Source: Roseofilum capinflatum BLCC-M114 (GTDB lineage: Bacteria; Cyanobacteriota; Cyanobacteriia; Cyanobacteriales; Desertifilaceae). Taken from it: a stretch of 64,000 nt of DNA. The position numbers and the translations under genes were made by a program. The stretch lies in contig NZ_JAQOSO010000084.1 in NCBI RefSeq assembly GCF_030068505.1, positions 1-64,000 of the forward strand. The letters are read 5' to 3'. How positions within the stretch are numbered: the stretch's first letter is position 1; each line of letters begins with the position of its first letter. Shown piece after piece: positions 53,881 through 61,502 of the stretch. The notes under the pieces were generated by a model. It searched no databases, was not told the DNA's origin, and was given only the letters and a program-made list of their open reading frames with translations.

Positions 53881-53917
53881 ACGGGGAATGGGTGATTAAT
53901 GTTTAAAAGTGGAATTT

Positions 53918-56317
53918 ATGGTTGATTTTCTCTCAAGCACAACTTCTGAAACGCCGATTTCCGATCCATTAGAAAGCGCCTTAAATTCGATTCGCCACCA
54001 GTTGCGGGAAGGGCAAAGACAGATGGCTGGTTGGCAAGGGGGAGAATTGGCGGTTTCGGCGGTTCCGGGATCGGGTAAATCTACGGGGATGGCGGGTGCG
54101 GCGGCGATCGCCATTGCTCAAAATCGTCTCCATACCCGTCATCAACTGGTAGTCGTGACGTTTACCCGTTCTGCGGCTGCGAGTCTAAAGGGCAAAATTC
54201 GCCGCCATCTGCAAACCTTGGGCTTACCCTCCACTGGCTTTGTGGTGCATACGCTCCATGGGTTGGCTCTGCAAATTGCCACGCGCCACCCAGAGTTATC
54301 TACCCTCAGTTTAGACGCGCTTACCCTGATTTCTCCTAACCGATCGCACCAACTCCTGCGCCAAAGTGTGGAAAATTGGGCTAATAGCCATCCCCGACTC
54401 TACCAAAGGCTATTAGAAGGCAACCAGTCCGACGGCGAAGAAACGGAACGCCTGCGTCGTCAAGGGGTGCTGCGAACTGAAGTTTTACCCTACTTAGCCT
54501 ATACTGCAATTCATGAAGCCAAAAGCTCTGGTTTATTGCCCTCAGATCTCTTGGAGCTGGCACAAATTCAGGAGAGTCAAACCTCTGGAGAGGATTACCC
54601 GATTTTACGCATTGCGGCGGGACTTTATGAAACCTATCAGCAGCAACTGCGATCGCGCTCTTTAATCGATTATGATGACATGATTCTGGGAGCCTTGCGG
54701 GTTCTGCAAGATGTGGGCGCAAGACGGTTATGGCAAAATCAGGTCTTTGCCGTGTTTGAAGATGAAGCCCAAGACTCCAGTCCCCTACAAGCGAAACTGC
54801 TAGAAATTTTAGCCCAAGAGGATAGTGATTCCATCGGCGCGGGTTCTGTAGGGATGGGTTTGAAACCCGCCCCTACCAGGGAAAATGGGGATAAACCCAC
54901 CATCAACCTGATGCGAGTGGGCGATCCCAACCAAGCCATTAACTCCACTTTTACCCCAGCCGACCCCATTTATTTTCGCCAATTTTGCGATCGCCTACAA
55001 ACCCAAAACCAACTCATCGCCCTCGACTGTGCCGGGCGCTCTAGTCCCATTATCCTCCGCGCTGCTAACTTCATGCTGCAATGGGTTAACCGGCATATTG
55101 ACAACCAAAATCAACCCGCCCCCTTACCCTTCAGCGAACAACTGATTAAACCCGTACCTCCCGAAGACCCCCAACCGGACGCAAACCCAGCCCCCGAAGG
55201 CAAAGGTTTAGAACTCTACAGTCCCCGCGATGTCTTCCAAGCGGTAGAATGGATTGGCGATCGCATTCATACCCTATTTACCCAAGACCCCTATCGCAGC
55301 GCCGCCGTCCTCGTCCGTACCAACGATCAAGGACGGTTTGTCGCCCACCAACTGCGGGAGAAATACGGAACCGAAATTAACCTCTTTGAAGTCGCCGAAA
55401 GCGATCGCCACTCCCACGTCCCCGCCGAAATACTCAACCTGCTCAACTTCCTCGAACGTCCCCATTCCCCCGACGCACTCAAAGCCGCCCTCACCGTCCT
55501 CGTCAACCGTCGCCTCATTCCCCCCCAAGACCTCAACGCCCTAGCCAGCTTACCCGAAGTCTTCCTCTATCCCGGCCCCCTCGACTCTCCCGGAGATGAC
55601 ACCAGTAAAAGCGCCCGCCGCTACTGTCGCGCCCTGCTTCGGGCAAGAATAGACTTACCCCTTTACCAACTCATTCCCTTTCTTGGTCTCACCCTACGCT
55701 ATAGCCAAAACGAACTCGCCACCGCCGATAAATTAGCAGAACGAGTCACCCAGCAAACCCTAGGCGACTCGTCCCTGTCGGCTCTGTTGAGAGTTCTAAC
55801 TGAAATTGTCCAATCAGAACGATTTGAGCCAGTTGAAGTAGATACCGCCGATGATTCCCCTTATATGCGGCCCAATCAGCTTACCATCATCACCATGCAT
55901 AAAGCCAAAGGATTAGATTGGGATTATGTCTTTTTACCGTTTCTACACAAAAACATGATTCCTGGCAGTTTCTGGACTCCGCCCCAAACCCGGTTTTTAG
56001 GAGAATTTAGTTTAGCCGAAGTCGCTCGCGCCCAAATTCGGGCCCATTTACACGGAGATCCCATTCCAGAGGGACATCAAGCTTGGATCGAGGCCGAACA
56101 GCTCAAAACCGCCGAAGAATATCGCCTACTCTATGTGGCCATGACTCGCGCCAAACGGCTCTTATGGATGTCTGCGGCGAACAAATCCCCCTTTACTTGG
56201 AGCAAATTTAACGTCAATCGCCAAATGAGTCTCCAAGCTCAACCCGTTTGTCCAGTCTTCCCCGCCTTAAAGCGTCAATTTCCTGAATCTGGGATGCCAA
56301 TTAAAATTGATCCCTAA
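53918..56317 (+). CDS. UvrD/Rep-type DNA helicase with a repeat-derived insert
   Basis: Superfamily 1 helicase of about 799 residues. Walker A is AVPGSGKSTGMAGAAAI near residue 48. LIDYDDMILGALRVL and VFEDEAQDSSPLQ (motif II, DExx variant DEAQ) follow, then VGDPNQAINSTF (motif III), MHKAKGLDWDYVFLPF (motif V) and LLYVAMTRAKRLLW (motif VI). Between motifs II and III, at about residues 307-331, a Gly/Pro-rich stretch (GAGSVGMGLKPAPTREN) interrupts the fold and coincides with an inverted repeat in the DNA at 54848-54876. The ATG at 53918 with GTGGA upstream is chosen over a GTG at 53909. Probably acts in DNA repair. Confidence 0.88.
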   Translation: MVDFLSSTTSETPISDPLESALNSIRHQLREGQRQMAGWQGGELAVSAVPGSGKSTGMAGAAAIAIAQNRLHTRHQLVVVTFTRSAAASLKGKIRRHLQTLGLPSTGFVVHTLHGLALQIATRHPELSTLSLDALTLISPNRSHQLLRQSVENWANSHPRLYQRLLEGNQSDGEETERLRRQGVLRTEVLPYLAYTAIHEAKSSGLLPSDLLELAQIQESQTSGEDYPILRIAAGLYETYQQQLRSRSLIDYDDMILGALRVLQDVGARRLWQNQVFAVFEDEAQDSSPLQAKLLEILAQEDSDSIGAGSVGMGLKPAPTRENGDKPTINLMRVGDPNQAINSTFTPADPIYFRQFCDRLQTQNQLIALDCAGRSSPIILRAANFMLQWVNRHIDNQNQPAPLPFSEQLIKPVPPEDPQPDANPAPEGKGLELYSPRDVFQAVEWIGDRIHTLFTQDPYRSAAVLVRTNDQGRFVAHQLREKYGTEINLFEVAESDRHSHVPAEILNLLNFLERPHSPDALKAALTVLVNRRLIPPQDLNALASLPEVFLYPGPLDSPGDDTSKSARRYCRALLRARIDLPLYQLIPFLGLTLRYSQNELATADKLAERVTQQTLGDSSLSALLRVLTEIVQSERFEPVEVDTADDSPYMRPNQLTIITMHKAKGLDWDYVFLPFLHKNMIPGSFWTPPQTRFLGEFSLAEVARAQIRAHLHGDPIPEGHQAWIEAEQLKTAEEYRLLYVAMTRAKRLLWMSAANKSPFTWSKFNVNRQMSLQAQPVCPVFPALKRQFPESGMPIKIDP
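54848..54876. repeat. Palindromic repeat inside the helicase coding sequence
   Basis: A 29-nt inverted repeat with 14-nt arms, 12 of 14 positions pairing, around a single G. It keeps the reading frame. The outer part TCTGTAGGG and CCCTAC is shared with the perfect palindrome at 61297-61324, so the two belong to one dispersed family. Confidence 0.6.
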
Positions 56318-56971: not shown

Positions 56972-57259
56972 ATGAACTTACAACAATTAAAGCAATACCG
57001 CTCTAATATTATCAAATTAGCTGAACAATATCACTCTACTAATATTAGAGTGTTTGGTTCAGTTGCTAAAGGTGAAAACACCGAAAATAGTGACATTGAT
57101 TTTTTGATTGATCCCAATCCAGAACAAGATTTATTTGATGTCATTCGCTTGCGAAGGGCATTACAAGAACTGCTGAACTGTGATGTTGATATTGTGCATA
57201 GCACAGCCTTACATCATACTATTAAACAGGAAGTTTTATCATCCGCAATTCCCCTATGA
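56972..57259 (+). CDS. mntA: Minimal nucleotidyltransferase antitoxin (MntA-like)
   Basis: A 95-residue protein with the nucleotidyltransferase core GSVAKGENTENSDIDFLI near residue 29; Asp41 and Asp43 bind metal, and CDVDIVHS supplies a third acidic position. In type VII toxin-antitoxin systems such MNT proteins AMPylate the HEPN toxin encoded next to them. The next gene encodes a HEPN protein and overlaps this one by 4 bp (ATGA at 57256-57259), the classic layout of the pair. Confidence 0.88.
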   Translation: MNLQQLKQYRSNIIKLAEQYHSTNIRVFGSVAKGENTENSDIDFLIDPNPEQDLFDVIRLRRALQELLNCDVDIVHSTALHHTIKQEVLSSAIPL

Positions 57260-57621
57260 ATAAACAAAAATCTCCTCTATTTTTTCTTTATCACATTAAA
57301 GAATCTATTGAAGCGATCGCCATTCATATTCAGCACGGAAAAGAAAGTTTTTTAACCAATCGAACAGTAAAAATGGCTGTACTTCGTGAACTAGAAATTA
57401 TTGGTGAAGCAGCCAATAAACTCCCTGATGAATTAAAAAATCAGTATCCTTCAGTACCTTGGCGGGATATTACAGACTTTAGAAATATTCTCGCTCATCA
57501 TTATTGGGCAATTGATTTAGAAACCGTCTGGAATATTATCCATAATCCTGATAAATTACCTGACTTAAAAACTCAAGTAGAAACTTGTATTCACGAGTTA
57601 GAAAATCGAATTTCTGAATAG
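57256..57621 (+). CDS. hepT: HEPN-domain toxin (HepT-like, DUF86)
   Basis: A 121-residue helical protein. The HEPN ribonuclease motif R-x4-H-x-Y is present as RNILAHHY (Arg76, His81, Tyr83); Tyr83 is the position that MntA-type partners AMPylate in studied systems. MAVLRELEIIGEAANKLPDE in the first half is typical of DUF86 proteins. The 4-bp overlap with the MNT gene implies coupled translation and fixed stoichiometry. HepT toxins cut RNA or tRNA when not neutralised; whether this pair is active is unknown. Confidence 0.88.
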   Translation: MNKQKSPLFFLYHIKESIEAIAIHIQHGKESFLTNRTVKMAVLRELEIIGEAANKLPDELKNQYPSVPWRDITDFRNILAHHYWAIDLETVWNIIHNPDKLPDLKTQVETCIHELENRISE

Positions 57622-60847: not shown

Positions 60848-61285
60848 ATGCCTTTAGTTCGTTGGGAACCCTTCCGAGAAATCGATACCCTGCAACGCCA
60901 AATGAATCGCTTGTTTGAGGATTTAGCACCTAAAGAAGCGCTCTATAATCAAGGTGCTTTCCTGCCGGCGGCTGAACTGCATGAAACCCCTGAAGCGTTT
61001 AAGATTAAATTAGAAGTTCCGGGAATGAAACCCGAAGATCTCGATATTCAAGTAACGGCTGAAGCGGTTTCTATTTCTGGCGAACGGCGCAGCGAAAGCA
61101 CCACGGAAGAGAAAGGGGTAACTCGCTCTGAGTTTCGCTATGGTCAGTTTCAACGAGTGATTCCTTTACCGAACCGCATTCAAAATAATAATGTGGAAGC
61201 GGAATATAAGGATGGTATTTTGCACTTGACTTTACCAAAGGTTGAGGAAGAACAACACAAGGTCGTTAAAGTTAAAGTGGGTTAA
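60848..61285 (+). CDS. Small heat-shock protein (Hsp20/alpha-crystallin)
   Basis: A 145-residue chaperone that holds unfolding proteins under heat or other stress. The N-terminus VRWEPFREIDTLQRQMNRLF is typical of class A bacterial/cyanobacterial Hsp20. The alpha-crystallin domain starts near ELHETPEAFKIKLEVPGMKP and ends with EYKDGILHLTLPKVEEEQ, which holds the conserved A-x-x-x-n-G-v-L-like signature. A C-terminal V-x-V motif (VVKVKVG) could be the oligomerisation anchor. Strong AGGAGGT upstream. A perfect palindrome just downstream may terminate the transcript. Confidence 0.93.
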   Translation: MPLVRWEPFREIDTLQRQMNRLFEDLAPKEALYNQGAFLPAAELHETPEAFKIKLEVPGMKPEDLDIQVTAEAVSISGERRSESTTEEKGVTRSEFRYGQFQRVIPLPNRIQNNNVEAEYKDGILHLTLPKVEEEQHKVVKVKVG

Positions 61286-61296
61286 GGTTAGGATCT

Positions 61297-61324
61297 GTAG
61301 GGGCGAAAAATTTTTCGCCCCTAC
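61297..61324. repeat. Perfect 28-bp palindrome
   Basis: GTAGGGGCGAAAAA at 61297-61310 is followed directly by its exact inverted copy TTTTTCGCCCCTAC at 61311-61324. It starts 12 nt after the Hsp20 stop and may end transcription. Its outer sequence is shared with the palindrome in the helicase gene (54848-54876). Confidence 0.75.
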
Positions 61325-61379
61325 TATATCCTTGGTTGTTAGCCTAGCTTGGGGTGCGTTACGCTTCGCTAACGCACCC

Positions 61380-61502
61380 TACTGCCGTGACACAGCTAAA
61401 AATGTGTATTAGCGTAGGGTGGGTTAGGCGGCTAAAACCTAGACTCTGACAGCAATCTATCAATCCGCCGTAACCCACCATTTTAGGGTTGTCACGGCAC
61501 TA
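61380..61502. repeat. MITE-like nested inverted repeat
   Basis: TACTGCCGTGACA at 61380-61392 and the inverted copy at 61490-61502 match at 12 of 13 positions. A second inverted pair lies inside (GGTGGGTTAGGCGG against CCGCCGTAACCCACC). The element has no coding sequence. Confidence 0.6.

Follow-up and report, generated by a model that had tools for sequence, protein, structure and literature searches.

The helicase gene and the palindrome in its loop

The stretch of DNA analysed here, referred to as the window, comprises 64,000 nt of the genome of Roseofilum capinflatum BLCC-M114 and harbors an open reading frame (ORF) for a helicase of 802 amino acids. Domain searches with this ORF returned PF00580 (UvrD-helicase, 5.5e-31) and PF13361 (UvrD_C, 2.5e-25), the protein sequence matches the structures of Rep, PcrA and UvrD, and the predicted fold likewise corresponds to UvrD, PcrA and Rep. 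With both UvrD domains and the fold present, the host protein is a UvrD/Rep helicase. The conserved sequences DEAQDS and VGDPNQ, which we take to be helicase motifs II and III, enclose the segment of interest. The window genome is designated G000, R. halophilum G003 and R. acuticapitatum G005, and three other Roseofilum genomes are designated G001, G002 and G004. The features are as follows.

53909..56317, + strand: UvrD/Rep-like helicase ORF, 802 aa (domain, structure-sequence and fold matches)
54761..54778, + strand: DEAQDS, residues 285-290, upstream flank of the insert (conserved across orthologue alignments)
54833..54847, + strand: apparent extra left-arm unit of 15 nt, decayed, ATCGGCGCGGGTTCT, encoding IGAGS (by eye)
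54848..54876, + strand: in-frame 29-nt double-foot REP read as VGMGLKPAPT (R. halophilum has the exact form at the corresponding site, L135)
54917..54934, + strand: VGDPNQ, residues 337-342, downstream flank of the insert (conserved across orthologue alignments)
61297..61324, no strand assigned: perfect 28-nt intergenic palindrome GTAGGGGCGAAAAATTTTTCGCCCCTAC, sister subfamily (sequence, repeat search and genome pattern count)

The original prediction, made from the letters alone, had placed a 29-nt inverted repeat in frame between motifs II and III, and this was confirmed. Positions 54848-54876 (GTAGGGATGGGTTTGAAACCCGCCCCTAC) form an imperfect palindrome with 12 of 14 Watson-Crick pairs, and encode VGMGLKPAPT, residues 314-323 of the helicase. 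The DNA folds at -7.7 kcal/mol with a z of -4.35, so that the hairpin is real, if weakened. As a bare palindrome the element is only modestly unusual and becomes convincing only through its relatives: palindromes with at least 12 of 14 pairs and loops of 0-4 were found in 14 overlapping placements in the window, whereas 20 dinucleotide shuffles gave 1.6 on average, and an inverted-repeat search of the window with default seed listed none at 54848-54876. The peptide first attributed to the repeat was somewhat longer; VGMGLKPAPT does lie within the 29 nt, but the additional GAGS falls outside, in the apparent left-arm unit. By eye, 54833-54847 agrees at 11 of 15 positions with GTAGGGGCGGGTTCT, a unit which recurs ahead of intact copies in G003 and has similar counterparts in G002, and is apparently a second left-arm unit of 15 nt in a decayed state.

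In the predicted structure (28-sequence alignment, mean pLDDT 82), a helix ends at residue 301 and a strand starts at 334, and residues 307-327 in between show a pLDDT below 50. The insert segment is thus predicted to be a disordered loop, which fits a tolerated loop.

The outer ends of the insert had also been matched to the perfect palindrome at 61297. Both elements indeed share the outer GTAGGG and CGCCCCTAC; their cores differ, however, so that a single common repeat was rejected and the intergenic palindrome was assigned to a sister subfamily. It is located 3′ of a small ORF at 60848-61285, presumably small heat-shock-like, and the region 61297-61500 contains, by eye, further inverted-repeat-like sequence beside the perfect palindrome.

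The helicase site in Roseofilum and beyond

The orthologue alignment comprised 118 rows besides the window protein, 12 from Roseofilum and 106 from elsewhere, with some genomes represented twice. Absence of the insert from orthologues had been named as a check on insertion, and the segment is indeed absent from the 104 of 106 non-Roseofilum rows that cover the site (L132 does not cover it and L126 does so only partly) as well as from the congener G004. Row L105, from outside the genus, contains a chance VGAG with the segment still absent. Across all rows, the stretch under comparison is a median of 12 residues long; in the window protein it is 32.

Within the genus, the insert is common to five of the six genomes examined and is therefore not a fresh insertion. 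R. halophilum harbors a perfect 29-mer at the site. In G001, the same arms enclose a 36-nt core (the 62-nt form), and the copy ends in CCTAAC, with the last pair lost. This core has a mean identity of 20.6 of 36 positions to 18 family members versus 10.3 for shuffled sequence, with none of 500 shuffles reaching 20.6, which places the G001 insert in the 62-nt family. The G005 copy has an eroded left arm, and in G002 a contig closes on 15-nt left-arm units and another one opens with the right arm. The alignment shows no segment in G004, and since this empty site has diverged, the number of nucleotides inserted into the helicase gene cannot be read exactly. The R. halophilum helicase has a second REP near residue 400, located in a linker and followed by five KPAP units (L116 1-100 and the end of L135); contigs C130 and C154 break at this REP, and no counterpart was found at this place in G000, G001, G002, G004 or G005.

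We consider it very probable that the segment is an intragenic GTAG double-foot REP, gained in the Roseofilum lineage, kept in the helicase loop and then changed in place. On this view, a short mobile palindrome, bounded by GTAG and CTAC, would have integrated within the Roseofilum lineage into the loop that separates motifs II and III. It may have been retained because the loop is disordered and because the element adds whole codons in a reading frame free of stops. Later change in place would have produced the apparent extra 15-nt (five-codon) arm unit and the lost base pairs in the window, and the perfect 29-mer, the 62-nt form or the eroded copy in the other species. The proposal that a repeat had inserted into the gene and been tolerated as a loop is thereby supported, by absence from the orthologues, by the genomic copies described below and by the low pLDDT.

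A hypervariable loop grown by slippage or local duplication, with its likeness to a repeat being secondary, is highly improbable as an explanation of the whole insert. Such growth would be in line with the other long, often repeat-like peptides in the same loop of other cyanobacteria (L032, L033, L037, L065, L072, L095, L113 and L114), with the G034 loop peptide, whose sequence has at least 49 matches in the G034 genome, and with the tandem arrangement of 15-nt arm units in several Roseofilum copies. The exact 29-mer of R. halophilum and the 62-nt member of G001, however, are not derivable from the empty loop by slippage, and reversed control patterns gave 0 matches. A first arrival by slippage is already contradicted by these two copies, and slippage is likely for the later arm units. 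The L113 loop insert, sought as a genomic repeat in its own genome, occurs there in a single copy. From the peptides in other cyanobacteria, of which these two were tested, it is as if the helicase loop were a common landing place.

Another explanation is that the palindrome is kept for a hairpin in the helicase mRNA, acting on pausing, stability or co-translational folding, rather than being a tolerated mobile repeat. Stem-loops of the family fold far better than shuffled sequences, and the site is filled in five of the six Roseofilum genomes. Against this stand the decay of the stem from -15.7 kcal/mol in the R. halophilum copy to -7.7 kcal/mol in the window, the eroded left arm in G005, the missing segment in G004 and the presence of the same element in unrelated genes, which together make selection for the hairpin very unlikely.

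Repeat copies, reading frames and RAYT genes

Many further copies of the palindrome in the genome had been proposed as a second check, and they were found. The sister pattern GTAGGGGC...GCCCCTAC gave 58 matches in the window genome, and the insert's own subfamily, at no more than three mismatches, five copies including the insert; the reversed control gave 0 in both cases. In a search of 38 genomes, the exact short pattern had 30 forward matches in G003 (28 contexts), one in G005 and one with a longer spacer in G034, and none in G000, G001, G002 or G004. The 28 exact contexts represent 27 sites, as L200 and the second copy in L135 are one site, represented on two contig ends that overlap. In a sample of 386 genomes of the phylum, which excluded G003, the exact 29-mer occurs in two, G005 and G204. 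The family is therefore dispersed and multicopy, with 28 exact contexts in R. halophilum and, in the window genome, 58 sister matches and only five near the insert's subfamily. The 62-nt form shares its arms with the short 29-nt form (reversed control 0).

The ORF context of the copies was scored mechanically from stretches of at least 40 aa open on both sides, independently of annotation, and some scored ORFs are antisense readings since the element is open on both strands. On this basis, 14 of the 28 R. halophilum contexts lie inside ORFs. Among these 14, L151, located upstream of FtsH, may lie ahead of the actual start codon, and the second L135 copy was scored on the minus strand, yet the plus-strand helicase reads through it. 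The hosts include PBP1C, two CobN-type proteins, WD40 proteins, an eCIS-core protein, an alpha-2-macroglobulin and a RAYT. Among the sister palindromes of the window genome, only 8 of 49 lie in ORFs (p = 0.003 versus 14/28), where 49 is the number of distinct copies among the 58 matches and three of the eight look like duplicates of one protein. The 38 distinct long cores among the fetched loci divide by length: 21 of 25 cores with a 61-nt match are in ORFs, versus 0 of 11 with 62 nt (Fisher p = 2.3e-6) and 1 of 2 with 60 nt. After collapsing same-site copies by eye, 17/21 versus 0/7 remained (p = 2.8e-4).

The readings are uniform enough to raise the question of a selected functional module, a binding or linker peptide VGAG...KPAPT that spread between proteins. 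All 21 in-ORF copies of the 61-nt class read (V/L)GAG...(E/K)PAP, and 12 of 13 usable short copies of R. halophilum read VGAG...KPAPT (p = 0.003 versus an even split between two open frames). The long cores, however, show no excess of change at third codon positions, neither in a first test of 11 of the 21 in-ORF long copies (0.554, 0.464 and 0.455) nor in 23 readings, four of them antisense to copies already counted (0.52, 0.475 and 0.485), so that no purifying selection on the peptide is visible. In addition, the peptide is eroded or missing in relatives. Conservation of the peptide for function was rejected on the missing third-position signal, and a selected module is correspondingly very unlikely. 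A tolerated REP insertion is the preferred reading, with an inserted peptide that is probably near neutral; the insert looks tolerated and not adaptive. The idea that such events add new peptide segments to proteins thus holds as far as tolerated insertion is concerned, but selection on the added peptide was not seen.

Double-foot REPs of subclass 2.4 tnpAREP transposases, which are bounded by GT[AG]G and C[TC]AC, are abundant in Cyanobacteria (PMC6006769). The Roseofilum element corresponds to this type, having GTAG at one end, CTAC at the other and a single stem. In R. halophilum, a Y1_Tnp gene (RAYT) contains an in-frame REP that separates NHIH from the tyrosine motif; a variant palindrome lies upstream, and tandem left-arm units follow downstream to the contig end. 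Its motifs NHIH, WQ and YIVENP, together with the in-frame REP lying between HuH and Y, fit subclass 2.4, the tyrosine motif differing in one residue from the published signature YIxNNP (PMC6006769). The homologue in the window genome (G000:C2:6860-7561, L242) is 48% identical to it, has the motifs NHMH, WQ and YICTNP with no REP inside, and is bracketed by GTAGGGGCGAACGGCCGTTCGCCCCTAC in two identical copies, at distances of 29 and 89 nt from the aligned region; these copies belong to the sister subfamily and not to that of the insert. The homologue is absent from the family-search matches and was found only by protein search, although its score of 28.6 bits exceeds the cut-off of 23; comparison with solved structures gave no match. 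Four Y1_Tnp genes from the family search in G000 (L163, L176, L203 and L204) were rejected as partners, as no GTAGGG[any][C/T/A] or reverse match accompanies them.

The protein search with the R. halophilum RAYT detected homologues in 6 of 11 genomes and none at E ≤ 0.001 in G001 and G002, both of which have the helicase insert. RAYT genes beside matching REPs are accordingly known from G003 (the insert's subfamily) and G000 (the sister subfamily), but not from G001 and G002. RAYTs next to palindromes and a REP in frame within one of them agree with the published subclass 2.4 tnpAREP genes and double-foot REPs (PMC6006769). Cutting and joining of single strands at GTAG hairpins by RAYTs may drive both the spread of the repeat and the exchange of its cores.

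As a separate observation, tandem repeats precede the REPs at four loci of R. halophilum (L149, L191, L193 and L195). The units, of about 20 nt, combine the left arm with a few adjoining bases of host sequence and are not the same at the different sites.

Long and short forms at matched sites

Eight sites in seven proteins carry a long form (mostly 21 aa) in one species and a short form of 10 aa in another. PBP1C has the short form in G003 and the long form at the same place in G001. A BchH/CobN-type protein has the short form in G003 and the long form in G002 and G004, as was also seen at the DNA level, the repeat being absent from G000, G001 and G005; a second CobN-type protein is short in G003 and long in the window genome. 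Two sites in a WD40 protein are short in G003 and long in G005. In the eCIS-core protein of R. halophilum (L196, G003:C139:2700-5700), an uninterrupted run of eleven VGAG units ends with a short REP; at this place, just one long REP is present in both the window genome and G005. A PKS has the short form in the window genome and a 60-nt form, with the left arm read as RGG, in G004. The helicase, long in G001, is the eighth site. Nine of the 14 in-ORF copies of G003 were compared in this way, and seven have a long form in a relative; the first site in the second CobN-type protein is ambiguous, and the second helicase site has no repeat in the relatives. Comparisons at the same site were confined to protein families that recurred among the fetched loci, and so do not represent a random sample.

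In the BchH/CobN-type protein, the long form is present in the outgroup G004 and in G002 and therefore looks older. At the helicase site, a two-gene tree nests G001 with its long form among species with short forms, so that long before short is not the most parsimonious order there. The short form uniformly has TTT[C/G]AAA at its centre, which is not what a simple deletion from long forms with TTC...GAA arms would leave, and we favour the view that short forms arose by replacement with a copied short element. Taken from sequence comparison, these patterns suggest that repeat cores change in place with the frame kept. It is conceivable, though we hold this only tentatively, that Roseofilum REPs form a coding-adapted population, with frame-keeping lengths in ORFs, a sister length class between genes, in-place exchange of cores between 62-nt and 29-nt forms at coding sites already occupied, a shift of R. 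halophilum to the short form and arms growing by 15-nt (five-codon) units. If RAYTs cut and rejoin the hairpins, this would be a system of site-for-site replacement that rewrites loops in many proteins while leaving frames unbroken.

Intragenic REPs as such are already published, including those in UvrD-type helicases and in cyanobacterial RAYT genes. Di Nocera, De Gregorio and Rocco (2013; PMC3733652) described GTAG-tagged REPs with copies inside ORFs, listed UvrD/REP helicase and other repair genes among the REP-decorated proteins, and included families from Anabaena, Nostoc and Cyanothece in the Cyanobacteria. The Roseofilum element resembles these as a short GTAG-tagged palindrome inside ORFs, a UvrD-type helicase included, but differs in that its GTAG pairs with CTAC in the folds, whereas their tag is unpaired at one end; this comparison is with the families as described and not with their tabulated sequences. 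For double-foot REPs, an origin by central deletion of an inverted dimer has been proposed, and in-frame REP insertion in RAYT genes as well as tolerance in loops have been reported (PMC6006769). The Roseofilum repeat shares the GTAG/CTAC ends and a RAYT gene with an in-frame copy, and extends the account given there in being traced across unrelated host genes and in long and short forms at matched orthologue places. Rickettsia palindromic elements are likewise palindromes fused in frame within conserved protein genes, the insert in gmk being described as neutral in effect; they differ in their length of 105-146 bp and in occurring in other bacteria, and the review passages on them (PMC2229807) make no link to a RAYT.

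The window's puzzling helicase peptide is explained as tolerated mobile DNA. REPINs are paired REPs between genes. They form repeat populations that are linked to RAYTs (PMC3116915, PMC8049555), as are the Roseofilum REPs, whose copies of interest lie in ORFs. Within the literature searched, which was covered partially and with supplementary tables aside, no description of the Roseofilum family was found by sequence or peptides, among work on Roseofilum repeats or among work on REPINs and gene conversion. The less expected part is that related species have long and short versions of a REP at the same spots in several genes. Change of intragenic REPs after insertion has been poorly seen so far, although such REPs have been catalogued. 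The six Roseofilum genomes provide a natural series at matched places, comprising empty, long, short, arm-expanded and eroded states, which makes in-place replacement of RAYT-linked repeats and the absorption of repeated in-frame insertions by proteins testable.

Elsewhere in the window, at 56972-57621, two adjacent small ORFs resemble, as judged by eye from their translations, a nucleotidyltransferase and HEPN (MNT/HEPN) pair.
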